32,487 nt of DNA from a virus. The stretch spans positions 1 to 32,487 of IMG/VR virus record IMGVR_UViG_3300028840_003855. One strand, given 5' to 3'. Positions 214 through 30,292 of this stretch are shown in pieces (position 1 is the first letter of the stretch; every line of letters starts with the position of its first letter). The notes beneath the pieces are model-generated. The model made no database searches. It saw only the letters and a program-made list of their open reading frames with translations, and was not told the origin of the DNA. The position numbers and the translations under genes are program-made.

Positions 214-1049
214 ATAACCTTAAGACAGTACACCCAGTGTCAGTTACAAGACAGCATGAGGCTATGATACCCAACCTCCTTAGCAGGTTGGATGATGACA
301 CTCCCATCTTATCCCTCAATAAGTGGGGAAGGACATTCAGACCCAGGACACTGACTGTATGCGACATCCTGGAGGTCATTAAGCTGAATGCCGCCTATAC
401 TAAGATACCTTATGACAATGGCTCATATGGGGCCGTTATCTGTATTGATGTCCTGGATAAGCTGCCTCAACCCCAGTTGATGGTGGATGAGATCTACAGG
501 GTTACAACAGAAGATCCACTTATCTACGTGGAGGTCCCATTCCTCCAGCCATATGACCATACCAGCAATAGCTACTACAGGTATACCCCCAGGGGGTTGG
601 AGTATATCATGAGGCCCTTTGAGATGATTGACTTTGGTATCTTTAACGGCCCAGGAAGCACTATGCATTGGGTATCCAGGATCTTCCACTCCCTTCTATT
701 CGATAGGGAGGGTGACCTTAAGTCCTTACATGAATTAGCTGGTAGTCCCAACTACCTGGAGGCTACCCAGATCTTTGGCATGGACTTGTCCTATCTGAAG
801 GGGGCGGATGACTTTTTAACCCAGAAGGAGCATGCAGTTTGCATTTCCTGTAGCTTCTATGGTATATTTAATAAGGGCAGTACTATGCTAACAGATAGTA
901 CTGACACCAGTAATGACACCAGTACTGCTGAAGATACTAACAATGTAGGGGGTAAGGAGGGCAGTGAGGAACTAGATGCCAAATATGAGCTTCGGCCAGC
1001 TCCGGAGCCTACTGAAATACCTGGACAACCAGGAACAGAGGGAAGATGA
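210..1049 (+). CDS. Class I SAM-methyltransferase-like protein, probably degenerate, with acidic tail
   Basis: 279 residues, starting at an ATG that overlaps the upstream stop. Residues about 73-85 (YGAVICIDVLDKL) match the post-motif region of class I methyltransferases. Residues 106-127 (YVEVP, then a YYRYTP-type segment) resemble the C-terminal half of Methyltransf_11-type proteins that are often encoded beside phage terminases. The glycine-rich SAM-binding motif I expected near residues 33-45 is not recognisable; that stretch reads PILSLNKWG. The protein may therefore be catalytically inactive or bind another ligand. Residues after about 225 are Ser/Thr/Asp/Glu-rich low complexity. The last 74 nt overlap the start of the terminase gene. 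The fold call is family inference; the substrate is unknown. Confidence 0.6.
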   Translation: MNNLKTVHPVSVTRQHEAMIPNLLSRLDDDTPILSLNKWGRTFRPRTLTVCDILEVIKLNAAYTKIPYDNGSYGAVICIDVLDKLPQPQLMVDEIYRVTTEDPLIYVEVPFLQPYDHTSNSYYRYTPRGLEYIMRPFEMIDFGIFNGPGSTMHWVSRIFHSLLFDREGDLKSLHELAGSPNYLEATQIFGMDLSYLKGADDFLTQKEHAVCISCSFYGIFNKGSTMLTDSTDTSNDTSTAEDTNNVGGKEGSEELDAKYELRPAPEPTEIPGQPGTEGR

Positions 1050-11379: not shown

Positions 11380-11554
11380 ATGGATAAAGGGAATAAGGAC
11401 CTACAGATATTCAGAAGGGTGTACAGCGCCTTCACTAACAATGGCTATGTGGTGGATGATGAGTCCCCCACCGGCTTTAGTGATGAGCCTATGCTGATCA
11501 ATGACCTTCTGGTGCAGGCTGACCTCACCAGGTTCGATATGAGCCTCCTACTGT
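11380..11554 (+). other. Capsid exon 1
   Basis: 175 nt encoding the N-terminal arm, ending DMSLLL plus one base of a split Phe codon (T|TT). The 5' splice site follows T11554. The last seven exon bases CTACTGT (11548-11554) pair with GCAGTAG (11561-11567), ending in U.G. Confidence 0.85.
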
Positions 11555-14500
11555 AGTAATGCAGTAGTGTAACTCCACTGTATGCTGGAAAGCCCAACCA
11601 CTTCTGTGGGGGTAATCAGCAGGTAACTTAAGATAGCAAGTAAGGGGCATTCAATATGATGCAGAAGAAGACGTTAGAAAAGGAGTACTACAATAACAAG
11701 CTAACCCAAGCTGAGATAGCTGATAAGTATGGAATATCAAGGAATACTGTTATTGAGTACTTCAGGAAATATGAACTAAGTCCCCTGAAACCCTATGAGA
11801 GAAATGGTACACAGGAACTAACGCCCCACCAAAACGAGTTCATGGTGGGTACAATGTTAGGAGATGGATGTTTACTAGTGGCTAAGAATGGAACGAATGC
11901 ATGGCTGACTGTTAAGCACTCATATGAGCAGTTACCCTACGTGGAATGGAAGTATGATATTATGAAGTCTTTTGCTGGATGTGATATCAAACATTGTGAT
12001 GACTATGCACATGGCAAGTTATACAGGAAGGCATATTTCAGAACAATATGTCACCCAGTATTTACTGATCTCCATAATACATTCTATGACAATGGGGTAA
12101 AGGTAGTGACCAATGAGATAGTCTCTATGCTGACGCCATTTAGTATAGCTGTATGGTTCATGGATGATGGTACCAGGAGTAGGAACCACCTGGAGTTTGC
12201 GACCCACTCATATACACCCCCAGAGCTGGAGAGGCTACAGAAGGTACTTAGACGTAAGTTTAATGTGCATACCTCCCTCTGGTTTGCCCAGTATAGGAAG
12301 GGTAGCAATCAGAAGATGTTTAAGATAGGCATTCTGAAGAGAAGTGTTGGTGACTTCATATCTATCATTAAGCCATACATGATACCATCTATGATGTACA
12401 AGATTGAGCCATTACTCTCAGGAACCTCAGAGACTAGATGTGGAGCCCCAGCAGTGCTGGGAGAAGATATAGTCCAAACCCTGTAAGAAATACTGCGAAA
12501 GCAGGGGTAGTAATTGTTATACCGACAACTGTACAGACCATTGTGAGGGAGGCATTGGAGCCAGCCCTCCTGATTGTGCCTAATATGTTTCAGACAATCA
12601 ATCTGACTCAGGGTAGGCACGTTCAGATAGGGGCGGTAGGTGCCATGGTTGCCCGGGAGATACCGGAGACCTCAGAGTATCCAACCCAGGACCTTGATAT
12701 TGATGGGGGTATGGAAATTGCCCCGACTAATTCCACTATATGCTGGAAAGCCCAACCACCTGTGTGGGGGTAATCAGCAGGTAACCCAAGATGAGCCAGT
12801 AGGCGGGCAATCGGAGGTAGTAATGAAGGAAGCAACTCTTAGAAAGGAATATTTTGATAACCAGCTCACTATAATGGATATAGCTGAGAAATATGGTAAG
12901 GGATATTCTACTGTAAACTACTACTTCAAGAAGTATGATATAAGTCCCCTAAAGCCTCATGAGCGGATGGATGTACCAGACTTAAGCAATGAGCAAAGGT
13001 CATTCCTCATTGGTACAATGCTCGGTGATGGGTCATTGGAATTGGCCCATACCGGTATGAATGCAAGACTTCATGTAGAGCATACAGTAGACCAGGTTGA
13101 TTATGTGATATGGAAGCATCATCTTATTAAGCCCTTTGTTACCGGCCCTGTAAAGTACAGGGAAAGGAGTAGGAAGGGTAATAAGTCGATAATGTGTGGA
13201 TTTCGCACAGTATCACATCCAATCTTTACTGACCTACATAGAATGTTCTATGATGCAGGGGTAAAGGTAGTGACCAATGAGATAGCCAGGGAGCTTACAC
13301 CAATGGCATTAGCTGTATGGCTTATGGATGATGGAAGTAAGAATGGGAACTCAACCATTTTTTGTACCCATTCATTCACAAGGCCGGAGTTAGAGAGATT
13401 GCAGAGTGAACTCTCTGGTAAGTTCAAGATAAATACAACTCTTCAAGCTGCTGGACATAGAAAGGGTAGTAATCAGAAGATGTACAACATCTATGTACTC
13501 AAGAACAGCATGGAGAGACTTGTTGAGCTATTGAGACCTTATGTCATTGAACCGATGCAGTATAAGCTGGAACCATCACTAGGGAACCTCAGAGGCCATA
13601 CGTGGAACCCCAATGGGGAAGATATGGTCCAAGCCCTTCAAATACTGTGATAAGCAGGGGTACTAACTGGATATAATTGCCTTCTCAGTAGCCAAGCACG
13701 GACTTCAGCTCCGGGTTGGTGATGAGACTATAAGAGAGAGTCAGTGGGACGTCAATTCTGAAGGCGTCGGCTGGTAGGGATACCAGCAATAATAAATGTG
13801 GCTTACATCAGTGAAGCCTAAGGGACTAAATGAGTCCTATGGTAATACTGAGGGGTTCCAATAGGGGCCCTGCAGAGACTCTTAGTTAATACTAAGGATA
13901 GGTAGTGCATGTAGTAAATATAGGTTACCTATAACACGCCACACACCTAGAACAGGTGAAGATATAGTCCAAACAACATAGAAATATGTTGGGTAATAAG
14001 CTTCGGAATGTGGTTAGACATTAGCCACTCTATACAGCAATGTATGGTAACTAAGTGGATGAATTCAGGGGAAGCCCTACCGGATAGTGCCGGGGGTAAC
14101 CCTGAGCCAAGCCTGGATGAGGGTAAGGTATCCAGGAAGGTGCAACGCACAGCCAGTGAGGCCTCAACAATAACCTGGCCAAGAGCTTCCACCAGCCTAC
14201 TGGGCTGAAGAGATGTGCTGGACTATACAGTAATGTGTAGAGCCATAGGATAAAAAGCCTATGGGGTAACAATTCGTAAGAGCAGCCGGCCGTGCTTGAT
14301 TGATAGGGCTCGGCTTAAAACTAACGCTACTATATGCTGGGACGAACTGAATGAGCTGGTACTTGGGCACAGAACCCCCCAAGTAATAAACCAAGCTATG
14401 ATACAGTCAATCAGCAGGGAAGATGGGTGGAATTGATGGTACACAATAGGATACATAGGAATGATTACTTTTTCAGTAAATGGAGTGTAGATATGGCATA

Positions 14501-16225
14501 CGTACTAGGGTTTACAACAGCAGATGGATGTATCAAGGATACTACTGAGCTTGCGTACATTGTCCATGAGAATGATGTGGATGTGCTGGAGTATATCAAG
14601 AATGCCATGGACATGGATCATAGGATATATGACCATAATTATGGGTATGGCTTTAAGGGTAGTGGGAAGTACAAGAGGTTAGCACTAAAGTCCAAGAGGA
14701 TGAAGGCTGACTTGGAACTCCTTAATGTTACTCCCAGAAAGACATATACAATAACTCTACCTCCAATGATTCCTTCTGACATGCAGGGTCACTATGTAAG
14801 AGGTTACTTTGATGGTGATGGTTCTATTAGCCTATACAATAACAACAAGCAACTCACTGCTATAGTGGGTATGAAGACAGCTAGTGAGGTTTACGCTAAG
14901 CAGCTGGGGCAGTTGCTTGAGGGTAATGGAATTAAGACTAAGGTTTACAACAGACCATCAAAGGAAATGAAGTATGTTGATCTATACGAGCTTAGGGTAG
15001 CTAGTAGATCAATACCTGACTTTGGGGACTTTATGTACAAGGACGCTCCTTTCTACCTGGAGAGGAAGTATGAGAAGTTTCAAGCACTCTATGCAGGTAG
15101 GTTTGATAACTGCCTGATATGCAACACCAAGTTCTATAGGAAGAGAATTGGTGGAAGCTTCTGTGAGGGTTGTACTAAACTAGTGAATAACCAGCATGTC
15201 AATGAGATAGCGTCAATTACCGGCATTCCCTCAGAGGTCATACGTAGTGCTTGTGTTAAGGAGAATGTAGGGAGCATTAACTATGCATCCCTCAAGGAAC
15301 TTATTAGCTCCTATCACAAGAAGATATGATCCGAACTAGTGGGAGACTACTAGCAAACAACTTGCTATCACGCCACAAGGAAAATAGAGCAGCCAAGCTT
15401 CTCAATGAGTTTGGCTATAGGGTCATGGACAATGTTAGCCCTAGTACTGTTGCTGATCCTACAATGTATGGGTCAACTTCAGGAAGGGATATCACTGGAG
15501 CATTCAATGGCTCCATGACTGCCAATGACATATTTGATCTCTACACCTGGCTGGCAATGAGGGGTTTCACCCCTGATACACTACTGATCCACCCCCTGGC
15601 CTGGCGTACATTTTTATGTGACGCAGAGGTAAGGGAGGTAGTCCTAAAGGGCAATGTCCTTGCTACCCGGAGGCTTCCTCAGGGAACCTATAGTCCCGGC
15701 TGGGGTACCAGCCATGAGGGCAAGGGACTGAGGACTACTGCCACTGGTAGAGGGACAGCTACAGGGTATGGTACCGGGCCGGACACAGTCCTGGGTAAGA
15801 TAGGAGCAAACCCATGGACCAGTGATCTGAACCCATTAGCTGCTACGTTTAACATAGCACCACAGTACTTACCCAGTCCCTTGTCGGTATTGGTGTCCCC
15901 CTATGTACCATATAGCAGGGGCGCCGCCGTCATTAGCAGTGGGAGTCCTGCAGTTAGCAGGAGCTACCCAACTACTTCCGTCATAATGGCTGACTCTTCA
16001 GCCTGTGGTATCCTTGTACAGAGGGACCCAGTTTCGGTTGAGGAGTATGATGATCCTCCGAGGGACATCAGGGCTATTAAGATAATGGAGCGTTGGGGTA
16101 TGCACCTCCTGGAGCAGGGTAAGGGCGTAGCTGTTGCAGAGAATATTACCATAGCCAGGAATTATGTCTTTGATAATTCTAATGTGGTAACACTGCAGCC
16201 GTATAGTAGGACTACTGTAATTTAA
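11380..16225 (+). CDS. Major capsid protein (HK97 fold), split into six exons by five group I introns
   Basis: Predicted exons are 11380-11554, 12517-12710, 13670-13752, 14001-14014, 14277-14296 and 15365-16225, totalling 1347 nt (448 residues plus TAA). Joined, they restore a continuous protein that reads like HK97-type capsid proteins of this phage group: IPTTVQTIVREALEP (exons 1/2), LQLRVGDETIRESQWDV (exon 3), FGMWLRAAGRALSRHKE (exons 4, 5 and 6), then TANDIFDLYTWLAMRGFTPD and TLLIHPLAW. Each junction keeps frame, each 5' exon ends in T, and each intron ends in G. Unspliced, exon 1 meets TAG immediately and no exon encodes a usable capsid protein. It starts with GGGAGG about 12 nt upstream of ATG 11380. 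It forms the icosahedral shell after proteolysis by the upstream protease. Confidence 0.92.
11555..12516 (+). ncRNA. Group I intron 1 of the capsid gene (962 nt, with endonuclease gene)
   Basis: All core elements are visible. P1 is CTACTGT/GCAGTAG. P3 is TCCAC (11574-11578) with GTGGA (12440-12444). The P segment TATGCTGGAAA (from 11581) pairs with the Q segment TAATCAGCAGG (around 11613-11623) as P4. R is CTCAGAGACTA (from 12426) and S is AAGATATAGTCC (12464-12475), giving P7 GACTA/TAGTC. P8 is CCAGCA/TGCTGG (12448-12460) and P9 is CCCTG/CAGGG (12479-12506). The terminal G is 12516. The 3' end aligns with that of intron 2. The endonuclease gene lies between Q and R and extends through R and S. 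Confidence 0.88.
11656..12486 (+). CDS. LAGLIDADG homing endonuclease with N-terminal HTH (intron 1)
   Basis: 276 residues from ATG 11656, with a second ATG next to it and AAGGGG upstream. Residues about 6-45 form a helix-turn-helix segment (LTQAEIADKYGISRNTVIEY). The two LAGLIDADG motifs are at 62-71 (FMVGTMLGDG) and about 164-172 (IAVWFMDDG), so it is a single-chain monomeric type that should cleave the intron-less capsid allele. The last 20 or so codons (TSETRCGAPAVLGEDIVQTL) are read from the R, P3', P8 and S ribozyme elements, so protein and ribozyme constrain each other. It is a close paralogue of the intron 2 enzyme. Confidence 0.9.
   Translation: MMQKKTLEKEYYNNKLTQAEIADKYGISRNTVIEYFRKYELSPLKPYERNGTQELTPHQNEFMVGTMLGDGCLLVAKNGTNAWLTVKHSYEQLPYVEWKYDIMKSFAGCDIKHCDDYAHGKLYRKAYFRTICHPVFTDLHNTFYDNGVKVVTNEIVSMLTPFSIAVWFMDDGTRSRNHLEFATHSYTPPELERLQKVLRRKFNVHTSLWFAQYRKGSNQKMFKIGILKRSVGDFISIIKPYMIPSMMYKIEPLLSGTSETRCGAPAVLGEDIVQTL
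12517..12710 (+). other. Capsid exon 2
   Basis: 194 nt encoding the second part of the split Phe codon and then IPTTVQTIVREALEP through DLDIDGG. It ends after T12710: GGGGT (12706-12710) pairs with GCCCC (12720-12724) to form P1 of intron 2. The codon is complete at the junction. Confidence 0.85.
12711..13669 (+). ncRNA. Group I intron 2 of the capsid gene (959 nt, with endonuclease gene)
   Basis: P1 is GGGGT/GCCCC. P3 is TCCAC (about 12732-12736) with GTGGA near 13602. The P/Q pair TATGCTGGAAA and TAATCAGCAGG is almost identical to intron 1. R is CTCAGAGGCCATA (near 13586) and S is AAGATATGGTCC (13619-13630), with the P7 changes compensating (GGCCATA/TATGGTCC). P8 is CCCCAATGGGG. The intron ends at G13669 in TAACTG, matching TAATTG at the end of intron 1. 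The endonuclease gene lies between Q and R and runs through R and S. Confidence 0.88.
12823..13650 (+). CDS. LAGLIDADG homing endonuclease with N-terminal HTH (intron 2)
   Basis: 275 residues from ATG 12823, chosen because GGAGG lies 5-6 nt upstream and the N-terminus then aligns with the intron 1 enzyme. The open frame extends upstream to 12640, but that part lies in exon 2 out of the capsid frame. HTH at about 5-42. LAGLIDADG motifs at 61-70 (FLIGTMLGDG) and 163-171 (LAVWLMDDG). Shared segments with the intron 1 enzyme include GVKVVTNEIA and RKGSNQKMYNI. The last 25 or so codons are read from the R, P8 and S elements of the ribozyme. Confidence 0.9.
   Translation: MKEATLRKEYFDNQLTIMDIAEKYGKGYSTVNYYFKKYDISPLKPHERMDVPDLSNEQRSFLIGTMLGDGSLELAHTGMNARLHVEHTVDQVDYVIWKHHLIKPFVTGPVKYRERSRKGNKSIMCGFRTVSHPIFTDLHRMFYDAGVKVVTNEIARELTPMALAVWLMDDGSKNGNSTIFCTHSFTRPELERLQSELSGKFKINTTLQAAGHRKGSNQKMYNIYVLKNSMERLVELLRPYVIEPMQYKLEPSLGNLRGHTWNPNGEDMVQALQIL
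13670..13752 (+). other. Capsid exon 3
   Basis: 83 nt encoding DIIAFSVAKHG through ESQWD and two bases of a Val codon (GT|C). The 5' splice site follows T13752; GACGT (13748-13752) pairs with GCGTC (13764-13768). Confidence 0.85.
13753..14000 (+). ncRNA. Group I intron 3 of the capsid gene (248 nt, ORF-less, IA-like)
   Basis: P1 is GACGT/GCGTC with U.G. P10 is GAAG (13760-13763) with CTTC at the start of exon 4 (14001-14004). P2 is GCTGGTA GGGA TACCAGC. P4 is TCAGT/ACTGA. R is GCAGAGACT and S is AAGATATAGTCC (about 13960). P3 is GTGGC/GCCAC. Two hairpins lie between R and P3' (CTTAGT/ACTAAG and TATAGG/CCTATA), which is the P7.1/P7.2 arrangement of subgroup IA. P8 is CACCT/AGGTG and P9 is CAACAT/ATGTTG. 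It has no ORF. It is the most completely folded small intron here, so it should self-splice. Confidence 0.88.
14001..14014 (+). other. Capsid micro-exon 4 (14 nt)
   Basis: 14 nt: the last base of a Val codon, Phe-Gly-Met-Trp, and the first base of a Leu codon. It is bounded by the P10-supported end of intron 3 and by P1 of intron 4, where GTGGT (14010-14014) pairs with GCCAC (14024-14028). All 14 bases must serve both as codons and as intron-recognition sequence. Confidence 0.78.
14015..14276 (+). ncRNA. Group I intron 4 of the capsid gene (262 nt, ORF-less, IC3-like core)
   Basis: P1 is GTGGT/GCCAC with U.G. P2 is CTATACA GCAA TGTATGG (14030-14047). P4 is TTCAGGG with CCCTGAG; the segment AACCCTGAGCCAAGCC and the R-like GGAAGGTGCAACGCACA are very like cyanobacterial and proteobacterial tRNA introns (IC3). 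P7 is GCACA/TGTGC. P9 is CTATACA GTAA TGTGTAG (14223-14240), with a further hairpin CCATAGG/CCTATGG (14243-14264). P2 and P9 both carry GNRA loops. It ends at G14276. P10 is three pairs (TAA/TTA). I could not assign P3 convincingly, so the fold is less complete than in its neighbours. Confidence 0.75.
14277..14296 (+). other. Capsid micro-exon 5 (20 nt)
   Basis: 20 nt that complete a Leu codon and encode Arg-Ala-Ala-Gly-Arg-Ala. Together with exons 4 and 6 this gives FGMWLRAAGRALSRHKE, a segment typical of this capsid family. No other reading of the region restores it. It ends at T14296, where GCCGTGCT pairs with GGCTCGGC (14307-14314) with one internal mismatch and a terminal U.G. Confidence 0.8.
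14297..15364 (+). ncRNA. Group I intron 5 of the capsid gene (1068 nt, with endonuclease gene)
   Basis: P10 is a perfect six-pair match: TGATAG (14301-14306), next to the guide sequence, with CTATCA at the start of exon 6 (15365-15370). P3 is CGCTAC (about 14325) with GTAGTG (about 15246). P4 comes from TATGCTGGGA and CAATCAGCAGGG. R is CTCAGAGGTCATA (about 15233) and S is AAGATATGATCC (about 15320-15332). A hairpin around CTAGTGGGAGACTACTAG is a probable P9. It ends at G15364. The endonuclease ORF occupies the region from Q to S. Confidence 0.85.
14427..15329 (+). CDS. LAGLIDADG endonuclease with C-terminal CxxC zinc-like motif (intron 5)
   Basis: 300 residues from GTG 14427 (AGGGA 7 nt upstream); ATG 14436 is an alternative start. 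LAGLIDADG motifs at 25-34 (YVLGFTTADG) and 123-132 (YVRGYFDGDG). A C-terminal Cys set CLIC (229-232) and CEGC (246-249) suggests a zinc ribbon. It is followed by an HTH-like segment (HVNEIASITGIPSEVIRSAC, 257-276), probably an extra DNA-binding module. The TGA stop is formed inside the S element AGATATGATCC, and the R element is also coding. It is not close to the enzymes of introns 1 and 2. Confidence 0.88.
   Translation: MELMVHNRIHRNDYFFSKWSVDMAYVLGFTTADGCIKDTTELAYIVHENDVDVLEYIKNAMDMDHRIYDHNYGYGFKGSGKYKRLALKSKRMKADLELLNVTPRKTYTITLPPMIPSDMQGHYVRGYFDGDGSISLYNNNKQLTAIVGMKTASEVYAKQLGQLLEGNGIKTKVYNRPSKEMKYVDLYELRVASRSIPDFGDFMYKDAPFYLERKYEKFQALYAGRFDNCLICNTKFYRKRIGGSFCEGCTKLVNNQHVNEIASITGIPSEVIRSACVKENVGSINYASLKELISSYHKKI
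15365..16225 (+). other. Capsid exon 6
   Basis: 861 nt, beginning LSRHKENRAAKLL and encoding the rest of the HK97-type fold: STSGRDITGAFNGSM, NDIFDLYTWLAMRGFTPD, a P-domain-like DPVSVEEYDDPPRDIRAIKI and a C-terminal NVVTLQPYSRTTVI. TAA at 16223-16225. The open frame continues upstream to 15326, but that part is intron 5. Confidence 0.9.
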
Positions 16226-16329: not shown

Positions 16330-16722
16330 ATGGCACTAAGTAGTACAATAAGGAGTATGATAGACAGGACAGATGGGTTGAATGGTCCTGGTGATGGGGC
16401 AAGGGCCAATTACGTCTTCAGTGCGTCAGGCCTTGCCGCGGATGTGGCAAAGGTTCAGGCTGGGGATATATACCTGACGGGGGTGCATGAGACTACGGCC
16501 ACTGGCTACTTTCACTATAACTACCCCATTAATGCCATTCCCAGGGTACAGGTTTCATGGTACATTCAGCCATCCGGACTTGACATGTATATCTCAGCAT
16601 CAGGGGAGGATCACTTTGTAGTTTCCTTTGTTGATAGCAGTAATACTGCTACCCCCCCGTTCCATGATGATGACAATGACACAGTACCCGCAGTAGTAGC
16701 TACCTGGCTGGCAATAATATAG
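16330..16722 (+). CDS. Small structural protein A of a tandem paralogous pair
   Basis: 130 residues, ATG preceded by AAGGAGGT. It has no recognised family. Conserved with the next gene are SASGLAADV, a TATGYFHYNYPIN segment, PSGLDMYISASGEDHFVVSF and the C-terminal WLAII. It is compact, Gly/Ser/Thr/aromatic-rich and probably beta-structured. Placement just after the capsid gene suggests a decoration or cement protein, or a head-fibre base; that is inference. The Asp-rich loop near residues 112-118 (DDDNDT) could bind metal. Confidence 0.8.
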   Translation: MALSSTIRSMIDRTDGLNGPGDGARANYVFSASGLAADVAKVQAGDIYLTGVHETTATGYFHYNYPINAIPRVQVSWYIQPSGLDMYISASGEDHFVVSFVDSSNTATPPFHDDDNDTVPAVVATWLAII

Positions 16723-16737
16723 AAAGGAGGCTGGGTG

Positions 16738-17103
16738 ATGGCACTTAGCAGTTCAACCCCAACTACAGCAGCTGTAACCAAGAAGAGAGCTGGGTATGTA
16801 TATGGCGCATCTGGCCTTGCTGCTGATGTGATGAGGTACCAGGCCGGGGAGCTATATGTAGATGCCATTAACGAGGTAACTGCTACTGGTTTCTTTAAGT
16901 ACAACTACCCAATTAACCTGATACCTAGGATAATGACCACCTGGCAGGTTAGCCCAAGTGGCCTTGATATGCGTATCTCTGCATCTGGTGAGGATCACTT
17001 TGTCGTATCATTTATTAATAGCTCAAATGCTGCCGCTTCACCAGTGATAGATCCACTGGTAACTACACCACACCATGTTGGTAGCTGGTTGGCGATACTA
17101 TAA
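16738..17103 (+). CDS. Small structural protein B of a tandem paralogous pair
   Basis: 121 residues. The start at ATG 16738 is preferred over GTG 16735 because MALSSS then aligns with MALSST of the upstream paralogue and AAGGAGG has better spacing. Shared blocks are ASGLAADV, TATGFFKYNYPIN, IPRI, PSGLDMRISASGEDHFVVSF and WLAIL. The pair arose by tandem duplication and then diverged, mainly at the N-terminus and in the loop before the C-terminal strand. Function as for its neighbour. Confidence 0.8.
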   Translation: MALSSSTPTTAAVTKKRAGYVYGASGLAADVMRYQAGELYVDAINEVTATGFFKYNYPINLIPRIMTTWQVSPSGLDMRISASGEDHFVVSFINSSNAAASPVIDPLVTTPHHVGSWLAIL

Positions 17104-20616: not shown

Positions 20617-23466
20617 ATGGCTGATAAACTACCAGGAGTAAAATTTAATTACCCTGATGGAGGCCTTAATGTCCAGAGGCCTGCAGACACCGGCGCAAGT
20701 GTTCTTGTAGTAGGTAGTGCTGAGGACGGCCCCAAGAATGAGGCAGTTCCAGTGCATTCCCTTGAGAGGCTCAGTGATATCTTTGGTCGCTTTGGGGAAG
20801 GAAGTCTTGTAAGGGGCGCCTATGAAGTGTGGGGCGCTACTACTGAGACTGTGGACGTTAGGGCTATGAGGATTGGGAATGGTGCCAGGGCTAGCCTGGG
20901 TATCAGGGAAAAGGATGGCGCCTATACCAGGGACTTTACCAGTAATGCATCAGGTATTGCGGATGCAACCTATGCAGTATCAGGTGAGGCCACTATGATA
21001 GATGCTCTAACCCTTACTGCCAAGTATGAGGGTAGTAGATACAATGAATTCACAATGAGGGTTGGGGTAGATAGAAATGCCAGTAGCTCTAACTACGGCA
21101 GGACTTGTGCCATAGTTTACAATCCCTTCACCGGGGTAGAGTCCACTTACAGCTTTGACTATTTCAACACAGATAACACCGCTGTTGATGTGAGGAATGT
21201 TAATGAGCTGGTGGATGCTATTAATGCAGACACTAACCTTAACCCCTATATAAGTGCATCTACTACTGATATGAAGGCGCAATATGAGGTAACTCTGAGT
21301 GGTACTATAGGTGGGGCATATGTTGTCCCCTCATCCGGCGCATTTCCATATAATGAAGCAGCTGGAGTAGTTGGCGCATCAGGACAGGGGTACTACCAGG
21401 ATGATATGGTGAGGGATGTTACTGGTCCGTGTATGAGTCTCATAGGAGGTCCAGCAGTACAGACTCAGTGGAATAGTGACGGTACCCTGAAGAAGACTAC
21501 CATCTACCTGCATCATATCACTACCTTTGGTGATAATAACAGTGATGGTATTCCGGATACTATAATAGCCCCTGATCCCCTCTACGGGGAGGGTTCTGTA
21601 ATTAAGGTAGGCCCCATTGGAATGACCTGGAGCCAGAATATAGCTACTGCAGGTAACCAGGTAATATCCCTGAATAAGGTCTATGAGGTAGCCCTGGCCT
21701 CTGGGGAGATACTGGAGACAGCGGGGAAGGACTTTGCAACTTTTGATAGCACTCCCATTAACAGAAATGAGAGCCAGTCTGCTGGCTCTGTAGTAGGGAG
21801 TACTATAATAAATGCAGAGGGAGTTGGGCGGAATACTTCACAGTATAGGCAATACGTAACCCAGGGTTATGTAGGTACCTCAAGTGATGGGACTACAAGT
21901 GTATTCAACTTTGTAGCCAGGTTGGAGCCCGACCTTAGTGTCTACAGGAATGGGGTTGGCACTGGTGTGGTAGTATCTCCACCGGATGCCGATCATGATA
22001 CATGGCCAGGGAAGCTACTAAGATGTAGAGTCTACGAGACTACAGCAGGAGTTACAACTGAGACAAGGAGGCCAGCCACCTTAGCGTGGTGGGATGGTAC
22101 TGGTACCATTACCTACACTAGTGCCGATAACCTCCCTGCAGCCGGCACTATAATTACAATAGACTACAGTACGGTGGCAGGAACCTTGACTGAGTATGAT
22201 ACAAGGACTGCGGTGGAGGCCACCAGGGGATCCACCAATGACTTTGAAAACTACTTTGTCACTGGTAATGAGGTCTACTTTGGAGGCCCTCATGATACTG
22301 ACATATCGGTCACCTATGAGTATAAGAGGGACTATGGTATCCCTGGGGATGTCTCTGTCACGAACCATAATGTAGGTAAGATAGAGTTCACTAACCCCAA
22401 TAAGCAGCCGGGGCTGAGGAACCCATTGGGAACCAGGATAGGCCTTGACTATTCCTATAGACCGGAGTGGATCCAGCCCAGTGGGACAGAGTCCCTTGCT
22501 GGGGGATCTAATGGCACCGATATGACTACCAGTGAGTTGAAGACAGCCCTTAAGGAAGGATATGAGGCACTGGAGAACTATGATGTTGACATTATAGTTC
22601 CTATGGATGCCCACCTTGACTCCTACGTGGAGGACTATAGTGATGAAACTGGCATACTGGAGTACCAGAATGCCGGCTTCCACACCCAACTGGGGGATCT
22701 CCTCACTATTCTTGCTGATAATGTGGGAGACACCATAGGAGTAATAGGGGTGGAGCCTTCTAGCAGCAACAGCCTTACTGACGTTAATACCTGGGTGAAG
22801 CGGCTAACTGTGCCAAATAGTAATGACAAGCTGAGGGGTGCCAACTTCATGCCTGTATTTGCCAATAAGTACGTGCAGGTAGTGGCGGCGGAAGTGGCCA
22901 TGAGTGCAGCCAAACTGGGTGCAACCACTGTGGACTACTACAGTGATGGAGCTACCACCTATGCAGGCCTTATCAGTTCTCTGCCGGCAGCTACTGCGAC
23001 TACCAATAAGTACATAGGCAGGAGCCTGATAGCCCTGAAGCATAGACTCAGCAGGAAGCAGCTAGAGGACTTAATTGACATGAGGTATGTGCCCTTCAAG
23101 ATAAGTCCAGCTATTGGTCCGGTAGTGGTTAAGGACGTTACCGCAGCTACCCCTGGCTCGGACTATGATAGGTTGACTACCCTCAGGATAGTAAAGATGG
23201 TAGCAGACCTGGTCCGGGCGGTGGCTGAACCTTTCATAGGCAATCCTAATACTATAGAGAGAAGGAATGCTCTTGGAACTGCTATTAACAATGTCCTTAG
23301 TAGCCTAACCAGGGGAGAGAGCCAGGCCCTCAGGGGATATAACTATGAGATCAATAGTAGCCCCACAGATCAGAGGCTTGGTAATGTCTATGTAGATCTG
23401 GACCTGGTGCCAGTCTTCTGTATTGACATCATTCATGTTACAGTCCGACTAAGGAATGCACTATAG
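20617..23466 (+). CDS. Tail sheath protein (contractile tail)
   Basis: 949 residues, ATG after a long AGAGAGAGGAGGT. The N-terminus (LPGVKFNYPDGGLNVQ, then GASVLVVGSAEDGP) and the C-terminus (LRIVKMVADLVRAVAEPFIG, then YEINSSPTDQRLGNVYVDLD and a closing FCIDIIHVTVRLR) fit the phage sheath family. A subtilisin-like middle domain around residues 640-800 contains YDVDIIVPMDAHLDSY. It is larger than common sheaths, with inserted beta-rich domains between about 110 and 600. One contains DNNSDGIPD near residue 306, a thrombospondin-type calcium-loop pattern. This gene identifies the phage as myovirus-like. Confidence 0.88.
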   Translation: MADKLPGVKFNYPDGGLNVQRPADTGASVLVVGSAEDGPKNEAVPVHSLERLSDIFGRFGEGSLVRGAYEVWGATTETVDVRAMRIGNGARASLGIREKDGAYTRDFTSNASGIADATYAVSGEATMIDALTLTAKYEGSRYNEFTMRVGVDRNASSSNYGRTCAIVYNPFTGVESTYSFDYFNTDNTAVDVRNVNELVDAINADTNLNPYISASTTDMKAQYEVTLSGTIGGAYVVPSSGAFPYNEAAGVVGASGQGYYQDDMVRDVTGPCMSLIGGPAVQTQWNSDGTLKKTTIYLHHITTFGDNNSDGIPDTIIAPDPLYGEGSVIKVGPIGMTWSQNIATAGNQVISLNKVYEVALASGEILETAGKDFATFDSTPINRNESQSAGSVVGSTIINAEGVGRNTSQYRQYVTQGYVGTSSDGTTSVFNFVARLEPDLSVYRNGVGTGVVVSPPDADHDTWPGKLLRCRVYETTAGVTTETRRPATLAWWDGTGTITYTSADNLPAAGTIITIDYSTVAGTLTEYDTRTAVEATRGSTNDFENYFVTGNEVYFGGPHDTDISVTYEYKRDYGIPGDVSVTNHNVGKIEFTNPNKQPGLRNPLGTRIGLDYSYRPEWIQPSGTESLAGGSNGTDMTTSELKTALKEGYEALENYDVDIIVPMDAHLDSYVEDYSDETGILEYQNAGFHTQLGDLLTILADNVGDTIGVIGVEPSSSNSLTDVNTWVKRLTVPNSNDKLRGANFMPVFANKYVQVVAAEVAMSAAKLGATTVDYYSDGATTYAGLISSLPAATATTNKYIGRSLIALKHRLSRKQLEDLIDMRYVPFKISPAIGPVVVKDVTAATPGSDYDRLTTLRIVKMVADLVRAVAEPFIGNPNTIERRNALGTAINNVLSSLTRGESQALRGYNYEINSSPTDQRLGNVYVDLDLVPVFCIDIIHVTVRLRNAL

Positions 23467-23589: not shown

Positions 23590-23722
23590 ATGGCAACGCA
23601 ATTAGAGACATATACCAGGACCTTCACCTCCTTTAGTGGGGCGGATATCCAGGCTGTCCTGGGTAATGTCCAGATAATGGAGATGCAGGGAGTGAGTTAC
23701 AGTGTAACCAGAGAGAAGGTGT
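23590..23722 (+). other. Tube exon 1
   Basis: 133 nt, MATQLETY through REKV. Without splicing it ends at TAG 23722-23724 after 44 residues. GGGAGGT lies upstream. An ATG further upstream (23476) opens the same frame, but it overlaps the promoter and terminator and is not credible as the start. Confidence 0.75.
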
Positions 23723-26493
23723 AGTCAGTATACCAAGATTACTAGAGGAGATAAGCAATGGGTAAGAGGAAGAAATGGAGGCCATCGGAGATACAGCTAA
23801 TTAAAGATAGCTATGGTGTAGTGCCACTTGCTGATATAGCATCAAGGTTGGGAAGAACTATATCTTCCGTATCTCATAAGATAGCTAAGTTAGGACTTGA
23901 CGATCCAAGACAATGGACACCATTTGAGGATAGGATACTTATAGCCAATTACGAGTACAACCCGGATGTGTGGGGGCTACTTCCTGGCAGGTCAAGAGCC
24001 GCTGTAACCCAGAGAGCAGCTAAGGTGTTCAACCTTTCTAGGAAGTGTGGTAACTATTCCATTAATTGGAGGTTCTTTGATGCCATCAATCATGACTCAG
24101 CATACGTACTGGGCTTTATAGCTGCTGATGGTTGCATTGAGCCAGGGCTAAATAGGCTTAGTATATCTCAGGCAGCTACTGAGGCAGACATTCTCTACTC
24201 TATCAGGGAAGCAATGGGATCCTCTAACCCTATATGCTTCAAGAATGCCAGGAATGAGGCTGCTATCTATATACACAACAGGCATATAGTAGATATACTA
24301 GAGAGCTTGGGTATAGGTAGCAATAAAACCCTTAGGGGTACTTTTCCGGAAATGGAACCAGAATTTGAGCCAGATTTTATTAGAGGTTTATTTGATGGAG
24401 ATGGTAGTATTTACATACCGTCTGACAATAGATCTGGCCGGATTCAGTTTCTTGGCTCTCATAACATGCTTACTCAGCTAAGGTTTAGATTGATTGGTGT
24501 TGGGTGTAGCAGCAGACCTGAGGTAAGGAAAAGGCAGGTTAATACCCATATTCTTTCCTACTCATCAAATGATGATCTTCTTAGGCTGTACAACTACATG
24601 TACAAATACCCAGGTATTATGATCCAACACAAGGCTCAAACTTTTGGGCTAGTAGTCAGAAGTATATTGGATAAGGTGCCTTCACCAGAGGCGGAAGCCC
24701 TGGGAGAATTTACCCAGCTCAAATCAGGGAAACCCCTAAGGGGGCAATCCTGAGGGTAAGGCAGCACAATGTGCTGATCAGCCCGCAGAGACTACACGCT
24801 GGGCCCCACACACGTGGGTGATGGTATAGTCCAATCCTCACAGTAATGTGAGAGTCAGGATATTATCTTGACAAAGCGCCAATATACACTCTTGGATCTG
24901 CCGATCCAAGGTCATTTAGCAGAGGTATTTAATCTTGCCTCTTAATCCTACTCAATTCGGTGGAAGTCCCTATGGATAACACCGAGGCTAAGTTAGCTGA
25001 TAAGCTAAATGCCGTACAGACTGGAGTAGATATGTATAAGTACAATGAAGAGTTACTAAGGGGAGATTCAGAATTCAAGTACTACTTCTTAGGACTCCTG
25101 GCAGCTGACGGGTACGTTAGCAGTAAGTCCAATAGGTTAGAAATAGCCCTCAAGGAAGATGATGTTGCTCTGCTCAGAGTTCTTTCCACTACAATTGCTC
25201 CAGGAAAGCCTCTGAGATATAGGCAGAAGCTAAAGGCATATACGCTTACAGTAGAGAGCAAAGCTATTCATGAGGTTGTGGAACTCTACATGTGTACAGG
25301 CCAAAAGAGCATAAATCTCATTTTCCCATATGGAATACCCGACCAATACATTAACCATTTCATTAGGGGATACTCCGATGGAGATGGAAATGTAGGTGTC
25401 AAGAGGGGACAAAGGAAGCTTAAGACTGGTGAGATGAAATATTACTATGGTCTAAGGTACAGGATACTGGGTACTAGACCATTCCTCCAGGGGCTTCACA
25501 TGAATTTGAGGAGACTGTGTGGATTAAAGCACAATGCTCGCCCTCATAGGAAAGGCACTGAGAATGTATATTATATAGAGTATGGGTTTTCAGCAGCGGA
25601 GAAGGTGCTGGATTTCTTGTATAAGGATGCAACCTATTATCTGTATAGAAAGAGAAGGGTATATGAACATATCAAGAACTCTGATAGCAGCGACCTAGGA
25701 AGGGTCTATGGGACACCAGAAGGCTGCTATAATACGTAGGAAGCTACATTGTAGCTAAGGTATAGTCGAACCACCTAGTAATAGGATGGACTAATGAAGA
25801 GAGGTATAGCCGGGTCCATTGTTTTTACAATCTTTGACAGAAACCCTCTTACTGCACTTAGTAAGGACACCAGGGCAATCTGGTATTACTATGCTAAGAC
25901 AGGAGATCTGAGGGAGCCGGCTAATTATTCTGAGGAAGTGGCAGAGCAGATGCTTGATAGGACTGGCATGCCACTTGGAATAGAGAAGAGGCCACCTATA
26001 TATGATGATCAGGTGTTACCTTTTGATATAACAATTACTGCCCAGAATGAGTATGGGAATGCGGCCGTCAAGAGGATATACGGAGTGGAGATACTCAACT
26101 CTGGAGCAGGTATTAGTGTAGATGATATAGTCAATAAACCAGCTCACTTGTTGACTCTAAATCCTGCTGTATGCTGGAAACCCCTAAAGACATCCAGTAC
26201 CCCCCAGGGTGACAATCTGGTGTATGATACAATGGGCAATCAGCAGGGAAGGGCATCCGGCCCAACTTGGCCGGGGAGTAACCCCCCTCAGAGGCCATAC
26301 GCAGGAAGCCACCTCGGCTAAGATATGGTCCGAACTAATGGGTGACCATTAGCTAACATAATTGGAGAGCCAGGCAACCTTTGTTGCCCGGTCATTGAGC
26401 AACTGGATACCTATAGACGTGAGGGGTGCAAATGACCCCGGCTCCCTCGTATGGAATAGGGAGTTTGAAAGGTTGAATAATCCGGCAGGATAA
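23590..26493 (+). CDS. Tail-tube-like protein, split into four exons by three group I introns
   Basis: Predicted exons: 23590-23722, 24877-24926, 25797-26135, 26365-26493 (651 nt, 216 residues plus TAA). The joined product begins MATQLETYTRTFTSFSGADI and continues through VSYSVTREKV, SPIYTLGSADPRSFSRG, KRGIAGSIVFTIFDR, a GISVDDIVN|ESQATF junction and ARSLSNWIPIDVRG. The pattern FSGADI, SYS.REK, RxIAGSI.FT.FDR recurs in the next gene. Placement directly after the sheath indicates tail tube or a tube-related baseplate protein. Junctions 2 and 3 are firm. The first (REKV|S) is uncertain by a few nt, because homologous segments have one residue rather than two between REK and P. Confidence 0.85.
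23723..24876 (+). ncRNA. Group I intron A of the tube gene (1154 nt, endonuclease gene in the P1 loop)
   Basis: The guide sequence is far from the 5' splice site: GTGCCTTC (24676-24683) pairs with exon GAAGGTGT, so the endonuclease gene lies inside L1. P2 is CCAG(A)GGC GGAA GCCCTGG (24685-24703). P3 is CCCAGC (24713-24718) with GCTGGG (24798-24803). P4 is TCAGG/CCTGA. R is GCAGAGACTA (24785-24794) and S ends in TAGTCC (24827-24832). P8 is CCCAC/GTGGG, P9 is CTCACA GTAA TGTGAG, and a last hairpin is GTCAGGAT/ATCTTGAC. Exon 2 CCAATAT can pair with ATATTGG (24664-24670) as P10. The end is put at G24876, uncertain by about 2 nt. Confidence 0.8.
23758..24753 (+). CDS. LAGLIDADG endonuclease with two N-terminal SANT/Myb-like repeats (tube intron A)
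   Basis: 331 residues, ATG with GAGGAG 7 nt upstream. Residues about 5-48 (WRPSEIQLIKDSYG) and 53-93 (WTPFEDRILIANYEYN) look like two tryptophan-led Myb/SANT-type helical repeats, an unusual N-terminal DNA-binding arrangement for this enzyme class. LAGLIDADG motifs at 116-125 (YVLGFIAADG) and 207-216 (FIRGLFDGDG). The last 25 or so codons (through FTQLKSGKPLRGQS) are read from the P1 guide, P2, P3, P4 and P5 elements, so this gene overlaps the 5' half of the ribozyme core. Confidence 0.88.
   Translation: MGKRKKWRPSEIQLIKDSYGVVPLADIASRLGRTISSVSHKIAKLGLDDPRQWTPFEDRILIANYEYNPDVWGLLPGRSRAAVTQRAAKVFNLSRKCGNYSINWRFFDAINHDSAYVLGFIAADGCIEPGLNRLSISQAATEADILYSIREAMGSSNPICFKNARNEAAIYIHNRHIVDILESLGIGSNKTLRGTFPEMEPEFEPDFIRGLFDGDGSIYIPSDNRSGRIQFLGSHNMLTQLRFRLIGVGCSSRPEVRKRQVNTHILSYSSNDDLLRLYNYMYKYPGIMIQHKAQTFGLVVRSILDKVPSPEAEALGEFTQLKSGKPLRGQS
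24877..24926 (+). other. Tube exon 2 (50 nt)
   Basis: It encodes PIYTLGSADPRSFSRG, a segment missing from the flanking ORFs but expected by comparison with the paralogous gene at 26522. The 3' end is firm: AGAGGT (24921-24926) pairs with GCCTCT (24937-24942), ending in U.G. Confidence 0.82.
24927..25796 (+). ncRNA. Group I intron B of the tube gene (870 nt, endonuclease gene in P8 region)
   Basis: P1 is AGAGGT/GCCTCT. P10 is TCTT (24933-24936) with AAGA at the start of exon 3 (25797-25800). P3 is CTACTC (24948-24953) with GAGTAG (25024-25029). P4 is TCGGTG/CACCGA, P5 is TCC/GGA and P6 is GCTAA/TTAGC. P7 is GACT (near 25020) with AGTC in the S segment GGTATAGTC (25759-25767). The core from P3 to P3' is packed into about 85 nt, and the endonuclease gene fills the P8 side. 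It ends at G25796. Confidence 0.85.
24972..25739 (+). CDS. LAGLIDADG homing endonuclease (tube intron B)
   Basis: 255 residues from ATG 24972; GTG 24960 would add four. LAGLIDADG motifs at 38-47 (YFLGLLAADG) and later FIRGYSDGDG. No extra N-terminal DNA-binding domain is visible. The first 20 or so codons (MDNTEAKLADKLNAVQTGVD) are read from the P5', P4', P6, P7 and P3' elements, so the protein start and the ribozyme core share sequence. The stop lies before the hairpin AGCTAC/GTAGCT that precedes S. Confidence 0.87.
   Translation: MDNTEAKLADKLNAVQTGVDMYKYNEELLRGDSEFKYYFLGLLAADGYVSSKSNRLEIALKEDDVALLRVLSTTIAPGKPLRYRQKLKAYTLTVESKAIHEVVELYMCTGQKSINLIFPYGIPDQYINHFIRGYSDGDGNVGVKRGQRKLKTGEMKYYYGLRYRILGTRPFLQGLHMNLRRLCGLKHNARPHRKGTENVYYIEYGFSAAEKVLDFLYKDATYYLYRKRRVYEHIKNSDSSDLGRVYGTPEGCYNT
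25797..26135 (+). other. Tube exon 3
   Basis: 339 nt from KRGIAGSIVF to ISVDDIVN. The 5' splice site of intron C follows T26135: AGTCAAT (26129-26135) pairs with GTTGACT (26150-26156), seven pairs with a terminal U.G. Unspliced, the frame stays open through most of intron C to 26321, giving a false C-terminus. Confidence 0.85.
26136..26364 (+). ncRNA. Group I intron C of the tube gene (229 nt, ORF-less)
   Basis: P1 is AGTCAAT/GTTGACT. P3 is CCTGC/GCAGG. The P segment TATGCTGGAAACC pairs with the Q segment CAATCAGCAGGG as P4. R is CTCAGAGGCCATA (about 26288) and S is AAGATATGGTCC (about 26320-26331), giving P7 GGCCATA/TATGGTCC. P8 is AGCC/GGCT. P9 is CTAATGG GTGA CCATTAG (26335-26352) with a GNRA loop. 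It ends at G26364. Its P, Q, R and S sequences are close to capsid introns 1 and 2, so it may be an endonuclease-free relative. Confidence 0.87.
26365..26493 (+). other. Tube exon 4
   Basis: 129 nt encoding ESQATFVARSLSNWIPIDVRG through LNNPAG and TAA. The paralogue at 26522 has KTCSFVARDIDMIRP at the same place, which supports the junction. Confidence 0.83.
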
Positions 26494-26521: not shown

Positions 26522-27835
26522 ATGCTTGACGTACCAAGGCCTGTGCCAAGACTGAGTATTGAGGATGATGTGCCTAAGGATAAGAGGATTGGGGCCACCA
26601 GGATGGAAGTGCCAGGGGTGGTACCGTCTATATCCTCTGTTAGATCACCCAGGCCCATTGACCTACCAGTCCTGGTAACCAGGGGTGCCAGTGTGGTGCC
26701 AATGGGGGGTACCCTTATAGAGAGACCGGTGGAGAACTTGTCTCCTACCATGGGTATACCCAAATCTATCCCAGGCATGGGTCCAAGACTTATAAGCAGG
26801 GAGTGGCATGCCGGCGGCAGCCCCATGGAGATACCAAGTACCAATACTTCCAGGACCTTTAGTGGGGCGGATATAACTGCTGTAGTGCATGTCCTTGGCA
26901 ATAACAACATGTCCAGGCCTGTCATTATAGCCAATGCCTCTACTCTATCCTATTCTATACACAGGGAGAAACACCCGGTAAGGGCCCTGGGCCACACCTA
27001 TCCCAGGGGATATACCAGGGGGTCAAGGACGATAGCAGGGTCTATTATCTTCACTATGTTTGATAGAGAGGTACTGTGGGCCTTAATACAGTCCTACAGC
27101 CACGATACTGAGTGGAATGAGGGGGAATATGAGTATTCCTCCTATAGCCCCCTCATTGACCAGCTTCCCCCCTTTGACTTGACCATTACCTTTGCTAATG
27201 AGTATGGGGCCGTGGCGAATATGGGCATCTATGGGGTGGAGATAGTAGATGAAGGAACAGTAATGAGTATTGATGATCTCCTCGTGGAGAAGACCTGTAG
27301 CTTTGTAGCCAGGGACATAGACATGATCAGGCCATATGGGGATCCTCCATCCTACAGGGCATTTGGCATGGATATCAGCAATGCAGAGGTTACTCCCCAG
27401 ATGGTTGATGACTTTTATAAGTCCTTGGCCTCCAGGAGGAGATCCATTAACAGGTCAGGAGAAATAGGGGGTGAGGACTCTGTATGGAGGTATGACATTC
27501 CATACGACTATGCTATGTTCAAGAGAGAGATGATCCATACTGCTACCAGCCAGTCTTCCCTGGAGCATGGGGCCAAGGTTGTCTATACCAGGAACCAATT
27601 AAGGTGGTATGGGTATGTCACTCTGATGACCAGGGATATATACAGGTTCTTCCCTAATGCTGAGATCTATAAGCTAACAGGGGACTATGAATACAGGGTA
27701 CATGATACGGAGTATGCCCATTATAAGACCTGGGCTGAAATGAATGTGGCTTATGATGCCAATCAAATTCCCCCAAAGTTCCTTATGTCAGTGGAAGGGG
27801 TAGAGGTAAGGAGAAGTGAGGTGGCGCCACTGTGA
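26522..27835 (+). CDS. Tube-like paralogue 2 with long N-terminal extension (437 aa)
   Basis: ATG after TAGGAGGAG. Residues 1-105 are Pro/Ile/Gly/Arg-rich and probably disordered. From about 107 it repeats the tube-gene pattern: SRTFSGADITAVV, SYSIHREKHPV, RTIAGSIIFTMFDR, FDLTITFANEYGAV, IYGVEIVDEG and FVARDIDMI. The last 140 residues are extra. It is uninterrupted by introns although homologous to the split gene. It could be a second tube protein, a tube initiator or a baseplate hub component. Its TGA overlaps the next GTG (GTGA). Confidence 0.8.
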   Translation: MLDVPRPVPRLSIEDDVPKDKRIGATRMEVPGVVPSISSVRSPRPIDLPVLVTRGASVVPMGGTLIERPVENLSPTMGIPKSIPGMGPRLISREWHAGGSPMEIPSTNTSRTFSGADITAVVHVLGNNNMSRPVIIANASTLSYSIHREKHPVRALGHTYPRGYTRGSRTIAGSIIFTMFDREVLWALIQSYSHDTEWNEGEYEYSSYSPLIDQLPPFDLTITFANEYGAVANMGIYGVEIVDEGTVMSIDDLLVEKTCSFVARDIDMIRPYGDPPSYRAFGMDISNAEVTPQMVDDFYKSLASRRRSINRSGEIGGEDSVWRYDIPYDYAMFKREMIHTATSQSSLEHGAKVVYTRNQLRWYGYVTLMTRDIYRFFPNAEIYKLTGDYEYRVHDTEYAHYKTWAEMNVAYDANQIPPKFLMSVEGVEVRRSEVAPL

Positions 27836-29052: not shown

Positions 29053-29475
29053 ATGCCTGAGGAAGTAAAAGAAGAAGATACAAGGACTGATGGAGTAGTA
29101 GTGGATGAAGTACCAAACACCTCTGAGGAGATAGATGAGCCAACAGAGGAACAGATAGCTGAGTGGAAGAAGCTATATAAGCATGTATATGCAGTACCTG
29201 TATCAGGGAAGTGGTATTATGTAAGGCCACTCTTCAGAAGGGAAGTTAAGGAGCTGGCTAACGCCATTAGCAGGGAGACCATGATGGCCACTGAGGGGGA
29301 GATGACAGCATCCCAGATGACGTTTGAGGATCATGTAGCTCTTGCTGGCCTGTTGTGGCCATTCATAGGGCCTGAGGAGACTGATGAGTCCCTTGGCTTC
29401 CTGCTTGGTACTTTGAGTGACCAGATAATGCGTTTCAGTGGGGCTGGGATAGATGCAGAGCCCATTGAACTCTAA
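29053..29475 (+). CDS. Tail-assembly-chaperone-like protein 1
   Basis: 140 residues, ATG 29053. Residues 1-38 are acidic. Then comes EEQIAEWKKLYKHVYAV, a strand pair (KWYYVRPLFRREVKEL) and a helical C-terminus. Size, acidity and position between tube and tape-measure-like genes are as expected of tail assembly chaperones (lambda gpG-like slot). It shares EWKxxYxxVYxV and YYxRxL with the next gene. Confidence 0.65.
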   Translation: MPEEVKEEDTRTDGVVVDEVPNTSEEIDEPTEEQIAEWKKLYKHVYAVPVSGKWYYVRPLFRREVKELANAISRETMMATEGEMTASQMTFEDHVALAGLLWPFIGPEETDESLGFLLGTLSDQIMRFSGAGIDAEPIEL

Positions 29476-30292
29476 TAGTGACACTACTAATGATGGCCCA
29501 AGCAATAAAGACATCCTGGAGTGGAAGGATAAATACAGATCCGTCTACAGGGTAGTTATCCTGGACCATGAATGCTACTACAGGAAGCTAAGGATAATAG
29601 AATACGTAAGGATTGAGGGTGCCTCCCTTACCGACCTCCAATATGAAGAGGCTGTAGTAAGGGGGGTATTATTATATCCTGGATTTGACACACTATATGG
29701 GTCCTACGCCGGGGTAATATCCACCTTATCTACCTGTATATTGAGGAGTAGTTGCCTTGAGCTGTCAGCGGAGGATCTCAAGGAGGAGGTCCCCTTAGCT
29801 GACGCCTGGGCCAGGGGCATAGATGAAGAGAAGAGGAAGATCCTGCCCAGGACTGACCCTGTATCAGGTCAGTTGGTTATAGACAAGCCCATTATTCCCC
29901 TCATTCTGAATATTATACAGGTCATTCCATCCTACAGGCCTGAGGAACTACTAATGATGACCATGGACCAAATACTAGAAAGGGTAGCATGGGCGCAGTA
30001 CATGACTGGAGATATTCCGTCTGATGTAAAGAAGCTCATCAGGGCGTACTATGGCCCTGGCTCTACTATCCACTCTACCGCCCCATCACCTAATCCATCT
30101 ACTAACCAACCTACCTATCCCTCCTCCGGCAGGGGACAATGGAGCCTCAGCCAGCAGGAGCTGGAGCAGATGTCAGCTGATGCCAGTACCAAGGCATTGA
30201 GTGAAGAGATGAGAAAGTATATGAGGAACAGAACTATGAAGAAGGGGAATACAAGGAGGAAAGATGCTGGGCCCATACCTTGGAGGAGATAA
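29453..30292 (+). CDS. Tail-assembly-chaperone-like protein 2 (overlapping paralogue)
   Basis: 279 residues from ATG 29453, in the +1 frame relative to the previous gene and overlapping it by 23 nt. ILEWKDKYRSVYRVV and a following YYRKL align with the first chaperone-like protein, so it is a paralogue with its own start. The middle is helical. The C-terminal 70 residues are Pro/Ser-rich, then very basic (MKKGNTRRKDAG). It overlaps the next gene by 29 nt. Confidence 0.65.
   Translation: MQSPLNSNSDTTNDGPSNKDILEWKDKYRSVYRVVILDHECYYRKLRIIEYVRIEGASLTDLQYEEAVVRGVLLYPGFDTLYGSYAGVISTLSTCILRSSCLELSAEDLKEEVPLADAWARGIDEEKRKILPRTDPVSGQLVIDKPIIPLILNIIQVIPSYRPEELLMMTMDQILERVAWAQYMTGDIPSDVKKLIRAYYGPGSTIHSTAPSPNPSTNQPTYPSSGRGQWSLSQQELEQMSADASTKALSEEMRKYMRNRTMKKGNTRRKDAGPIPWRR

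Follow-up and report, generated by a model that had tools for sequence, protein, structure and literature searches.

Why does the region directly 3' of the tail sheath gene in the IMG/VR virus record IMGVR_UViG_3300028840_003855 read as a series of short pieces, and do these pieces belong to one gene? The record, 32 487 bases long and analysed here over its whole length as 'the window', carries terminase, portal, protease, capsid, sheath and tube paralogue genes in the order usual for contractile-tailed phages. The sheath gene (20617-23466; PHROG 16991 tail sheath, E 1e-62) is uninterrupted, and the locus in question follows it at 23590-26493 (the sheath, tube and capsid features described are on the plus strand). 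The original prediction placed a tube-like gene with three group I introns here; Rfam matches, splice junctions and related sequences agree with both its coordinates and its intron count. Comparison of sequences makes it very likely that this is the tail-tube gene of a contractile-tailed phage, interrupted by three group I introns that spread by homing.

Identity and exons of the split gene

The locus is orthologous to unbroken tail-tube genes that lie 3' of the sheath gene in related myoviruses. In KLEB27-3 the products gp026-gp028, encoded after the sheath, are annotated as tail tube proteins, and the synteny of the window agrees. The tube proteins of KLEB27-3 and MTATph1 match 23590-26493 in successive pieces, each stopping where the next starts (tblastn). 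Read from an unannotated GTG start, the MTATph1 copy contains TREKAPIYTMGSPEPRSFSRGKRGIAGS with no break, which corresponds to the joined exons 1, 2 and 3 of the window. Joining the window exons yields a protein of 215-221 amino acids. It is collinear with its intron-less homologues, for which KLEB27-3, MTATph1 (from the GTG start, its annotation being wrong) and most of the 116 unsplit tube loci described below were used. This alignment, which had been proposed as a check, places insertion sites 2 and 3 exactly. In most related loci the fragments correspond to one unbroken gene.

Exon 1 (23590-23720; MATQLETYTRTFTSFSGADIQ...YSVTREK), whose 5' splice site falls within 23719-23722, is 53% identical to residues 1-42 of the KLEB27-3 protein. 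The match ends at REK; the related locus L008 and MTATph1, both uninterrupted at this point, read on as TREKAPIY. Exon 2 (24877-24926) was recognised by a tblastn match to KLEB27-3 and consists of 50 nucleotides (APIYTLGSADPRSFSRG, with one base supplied by exon 1); its counterpart in L008 is APIYTMGSPDPRSFSRG. Exon 3 (25797-26135; KRGIAGSIVFTIFDR...GISVDDIVN) was located by tblastn to KLEB27-3 and MTATph1. Exon 4 (26365-26493; ESQATFVARSLSNWIP...NNPAG, stop) corresponds to ERQATFVAR in L008 and EKACTFVARS in KLEB27-3, and the spliced open reading frame (ORF) ends at 26493. Between the window and L008, the proportions of non-synonymous (pN) and synonymous (pS) differences over all exons are 0.20 and 0.70. 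Every exon behaves alike, including exon 2 (pN 0.12, pS 0.60) and exon 3 (pN 0.20, pS 0.73). This comparison shows the four exons to evolve as one gene under purifying selection. In L008 itself, a 34-bp tandem duplication (GTTGTTGGTAGGGTGATG..., within L008:10001-10250) disrupts the tube frame in exon 1 and is probably an assembly error.

The assignment of the product as a tail-tube protein is supported by the position behind the sheath gene and by the annotation of homologues. A low-confidence structure prediction (pLDDT, the predicted local distance difference test, 52), for which the top PDB matches (E ≥ 0.019) are to Hcp and the tube proteins of contractile tails, offers only a hint in the same direction. 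The name 'major head protein' (phrog_9206) was considered and rejected, because the true capsid gene is situated further upstream and the KLEB27-3 homologues are called tail tube. PHROG 9206 bears the same doubtful name as MTATph1 CDS0020 (L007:18936-19570), which is annotated from an internal start; the upstream GTG restores its N-terminus.

Structure of the three introns

Intron 2 (24927-25796, 870 nucleotides) was delimited by spliced alignment, by its helices and by a homologue in the related locus L098. Its P1 is AGAGGU/GCCUCU, with a U·G pair at the splice site, and P10 (AAGA/UCUU), P3 (UCCUAC/GUAGGA) and P4 (UCGGUG/CACCGA) can be formed. It contains an ORF for a predicted LAGLIDADG homing endonuclease of 259 amino acids (24960-25739; Pfam PF14528, 28.0 bits; PHROG 4645, E 7e-29). 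The related intron in L098 occupies the same codon and shows compensatory changes in P3 (UUUCGC/GCGAAA) and P4 (ACGGUG/CACCGU).

Intron 3 (26136-26364) is 229 nucleotides long and contains no ORF. It is matched by Rfam with 50.5 bits at 26091-26352, and its P1 (AGUCAAU/GUUGACU), P3 (UCCUGC/GCAGGA), P4 (UGCUGG/UCAGCA) and P7 (GGCCA/UGGUC) were identified. In L008 the same site is occupied by a related intron that includes an endonuclease ORF; by this comparison, intron 3 is an endonuclease-free version of an intron still bearing its endonuclease gene in that relative. In introns 2 and 3 alike, the upstream exon ends in a U paired with a guide G and the intron ends in G. P1 and P10 together comprise 10 pairs in each (6 + 4 bp in intron 2, 7 + 3 bp in intron 3), a number equalled in 234 and 20 of 20 000 shuffles, respectively. 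A profile spliced alignment, built on 85 sequences with the hand-spliced window protein among them, recovers 24927-25796 and 26136-26364 exactly as derived by hand.

Intron 1 (23721-24876, with an alternative 3' end at 24859) gives the strongest Rfam match of the three (RF00028, 58.8 bits at 24663-24853) and has a fold z of -5.1. Its P1 is formed by GAAGGU (23715-23720) and GCCUUC (24678-24683), and P3, P4 and P7 were located. A second predicted LAGLIDADG homing endonuclease, of 331 amino acids (23758-24753; Pfam PF14528, 29.2 bits; PHROG 4645 and 323), is encoded in the loop that separates the 5' splice site from the guide, the 3' end of its ORF overlapping the ribozyme core. Pairing of the guide (GCCUUC, at 24678) with the GAAGGU that ends at 23720 would place the canonical cut after U23720. 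At the other end, the minimum free-energy fold contains a P9.1-like hairpin (GUCAGGAU-AUU-AUCUUGAC, 24855-24873); this perfect 8-bp element suggests that the intron ends after it, at G24876. A spliced alignment in which only introns preceded by U and ending in G were allowed puts the intron at 23723-24876. Among the combinations of 5' positions 23719, 23720 and 23722 with 3' positions 24859, 24870 and 24876, none unites the U·G pair, a final G, the reading frame and the hairpin. Joining 23719 to 24877 is in frame and restores TREK-APIY, and makes the pair at the 5' site G-C. Joining 23722 to 24877 keeps the frame with one added residue, and 23720 to 24860 does so with six. P1 with its U·G pair is present, and the candidate in-frame junctions differ by a few bases.

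Considered together, all three tube introns have P3 and P4, introns 1 and 3 have P7 and reach the Rfam gathering score for group I introns, and introns 1 and 2 contain LAGLIDADG_3 domains above cut-off. When five tube introns are compared, every one of the 90 cells in P1, P3 and P4 is paired and 15 of 18 pairs are altered on both sides; none of 500 shuffles matches this, the helices having been picked by eye, which favours them. Comparison shows that group I ribozyme elements are present in all three inserts and that the insertion sites are empty or filled among relatives.

Some points weigh against this reading. The canonical U·G pair of intron 1 (U23720) combined with the favoured 3' end at 24876 produces a frame shift. 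Intron 2 falls below Rfam detection and its P7 is weakly assigned. Splicing itself is predicted from sequence, and the ORFs of introns 1 and 2 are predicted endonucleases with putative activity and targets.

Distribution among relatives and competing explanations

Tube genes are unsplit in 116 of 121 related loci; because tube similarity decided which loci entered this set, it is biased in favour of unsplit tube genes. Capsid genes are unsplit in 123 of 131 loci, chosen by the capsid C-terminus (where no window intron is known) and with flanks that often extend to the tube gene. Sites 2 and 3 are empty in most relatives. The L008 tube gene has an intron at site 3, with sites 1 and 2 empty, and that of L098 has intron 2 only. 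L107 and its near relative L112 are split at TR/EKAP; L107 is also split at KR/GIAGS, and a probable third interruption, at DQLL/PF, lies at the contig end. The tube gene is also split in L113/L187, with uncertain boundaries. A joint Rfam scan at E ≤ 0.01 missed the introns of L098, L107, L099 and L153, so the absence of an Rfam match is no evidence against an intron. As judged from these sequences, relatives have gained and lost introns through homing at conserved codons.

The most extensive case is found in L185 and L186, which come from different metagenomes and are 99.95% identical across 8.4 kb. Here the tube gene is spread over ~11 kb (L185:824-11800), with exon 1 at 833 and the final exon near 11725. 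Spliced alignment predicts 7 to 9 introns, according to the penalty charged for each, together with micro-exons of 16-27 and as few as 9 nucleotides (GGAAAGCGT). When the gaps between anchor exons are shuffled, the score drops from 144 to 103 ± 3.4 (maximum 113.7 in 200 shuffles). The region contains four Rfam group I matches and nine inter-exon ORFs with homing-endonuclease domains; the capsid and sheath genes are unsplit. It seems rather more probable than its opposite that the tube gene is an intron magnet in this lineage, invaded at no fewer than six sites, mostly in conserved motifs and in varied combinations. L185/L186 would then hold seven introns or more, perhaps nine, in ~200 codons, with 9-nucleotide micro-exons spliced in order by several ribozymes. 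If this is true, we know of no phage gene richer in introns, and the case would reveal to what extent a major virion gene can be broken up by self-splicing. A 115-residue ORF within the split gene (L185:9264-9611) is diverged but tube-like by two weak profile matches, and may represent either a stray paralogue or a piece of an intron.

The preference for conserved coding sites that had been proposed is borne out by most of the tube sites. The seven distinct sites have a conservation of 3.8 bits against a mean of 2.4, equalled by none of 20 000 random sets of seven and ranking 1-2 of ~208 circular shifts; the L185 sites among them are partly profile-derived and lean towards conserved positions. 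Six of the seven lie at the 84th-100th conservation percentile (the range stemming from the scoring window used), and site 3 of our phage is average. Its three sites alone give p ~0.02. The predicted confinement of introns to the two structural genes also holds, with terminase (976-3000), portal (4951-7284) and sheath uninterrupted. In 94 related records (5.27 Mb), each credible Rfam group I match falls in a tube or capsid gene, together at most 3.3% of the sequence; the records were retrieved through these genes, which are over-represented among the fragments. An 18.5-bit match in one further case (G037) was discarded as lying within an uninterrupted ORF.

The explanation best supported by these comparisons is that selfish homing introns have settled in conserved codons of indispensable genes and would be removed to leave a normal tube protein. 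From group I biochemistry, guanosine would attack the 5' splice site held in P1 and the exons would be joined, giving the 215-221 residue product. The LAGLIDADG endonucleases of introns 1 and 2 would cut the empty site in co-infecting relatives, whose repair would copy the intron in. Clustering in capsid and tube genes would be a consequence of homing that targets the most conserved codons in genes no relative can afford to lose.

A tentative addition to homing is that the endonucleases serve mainly as weapons, cutting essential genes of co-infecting intron-less relatives, as demonstrated for phage PhiPA3 gp210 (PMC11620839). The sites lie mostly in conserved codons of genes that a competitor cannot lose, and by analogy some extra competitive benefit from such cutting is plausible; intron 3, however, lacks an endonuclease and cannot act in this way alone.

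It is most improbable that the introns are regulatory, with coupled splicing of capsid and tube transcripts gating virion assembly by GTP level, stress or time of infection. Group I splicing does require GTP, phage introns have been suggested to act as switches (PMC11878797), and both split genes are late structural genes. However, the large majority of tube and capsid loci counted above are unsplit, and the two genes are split independently: L098, L107 and L115/L185 combine a split tube gene with an unsplit capsid gene, and L021 and L023 show the reverse. The introns also vary in site, size and endonuclease content, so there is no shared element pointing to co-ordination. The coupled timing or stress gate put forward in the original prediction is unsupported by this sporadic distribution.

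That the pieces are separate proteins or remnants of a decayed gene is hardly credible, even though the intact intron-less paralogue next to the split gene (26522-27835; 45% identity to KLEB27-3 tail tube gp027) could replace it and an ATG at 25794 by coincidence offers the exon 3 ORF a start: KLEB27-3 and MTATph1 retain the tube gene alongside the paralogue, exon 2 has only its 50 nucleotides and no start codon, the ATG was rejected as a true start because it is the last three bases of the intron and is missing in L098, pN is far below pS in all exons, and the boundaries coincide with ribozyme pairings.

The capsid gene, known systems and the rest of the window

Eight introns in two structural genes had been predicted for the window, and the major capsid gene (11380-16225) supplies the remaining five. 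They were placed by a profile spliced alignment (score 587) at about 11534-12516, 12711-13669, 13753-14000, 14015-14276 and 14297-15364, with Rfam matches of 54.6, 47.0 and 21.2 bits. Introns 3, 4 and 5 are separated by the micro-exons CTTCGGAATGTGGT (14 nucleotides, 14001-14014) and TAAGAGCAGCCGGCCGTGCT (20 nucleotides, 14277-14296), all three being inserted within ~40 nucleotides of coding sequence. L008 has only the first of these five introns. The capsid genes of L021, L023, L099 and L153 have one or two introns, several of them at or near the sites of the first two capsid introns of the window. Those two window introns resemble each other, and the endonuclease in the L008 intron at tube site 3 resembles that of window capsid intron 5; from such likenesses, elements have probably moved between sites and between the two genes. 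Archaeal snoRNA matches near 11452 were weak (E 0.05-0.6, below gathering) and were taken as chance.

A tail-tube gene with three group I introns is already known. Staphylococcus phage Twort orf142 (orf142 / tmpA), later recognised as the tail-tube gene, has three such introns (PMC11878797). The Twort genome (NC_007021) yields three Rfam group I matches (63.6, 97.4 and 100.9 bits), and MT151386 annotates four joined pieces. In both phages the interrupted gene lies directly 3' of the sheath gene. However, the Twort introns lie inside 1.3 kb, and no ORF is annotated within them; of the three in the window, two have LAGLIDADG genes. The two tube proteins are barely related (hmmsearch E 0.05). Since exon 1 of Twort contains most of the gene, its sites lie elsewhere in the protein than those of the window. 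The split gene described here adds a second tail-tube gene with three group I introns to that of Twort.

Other phages share parts of this arrangement. Cluster J mycobacteriophages have group I-type introns in capsid (LittleE) and tail genes (BAKA, Optimus), which are spliced during late expression, and a LAGLIDADG-like ORF is present in that of LittleE (PMC3706429). These are siphoviruses, unlike the window phage, with a single intron per gene, a minor tail gene affected and no multiple occupancy. In zeta-group crAss-like phages, group I introns are numerous in the core genes, and one capsid gene is broken into five fragments (PMC7886860); the introns of these phages are spread across many genes and accompanied by inteins, whereas those of the window are in capsid and tube only, in the available sequence. 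Bastillevirinae have up to three group I introns per gene, mostly with endonuclease ORFs, and eight of nine tested genes were spliced (PMC11878797). There the hosts are polymerase, terminase and nucleotide-metabolism genes rather than capsid and tube. The multiply invaded lineage described here, L185/L186 above all, exceeds the cases found in the open-access literature. Its members differ in what they have at identical or nearby codons, be it a vacant site, a single intron, a remnant without an endonuclease or a gene cut several times, and would permit tests of how introns choose, multiply in and vanish from a virus's most demanding genes. Automatic annotation of such contigs fragments the genes for the main virion proteins.

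Protein scans of viral contigs found no close relatives of the window's sheath or of either tube-intron endonuclease. Downstream of the tube genes, two ORFs in different frames overlap (29053-29475 and 29453-30292), at a position where tail assembly chaperones that rely on a programmed frameshift are usually encoded. The region 3' of the capsid gene (16330-17103) encodes two similar small proteins in tandem (130 and 122 amino acids), apparently a duplication, L008 seemingly having a single copy.

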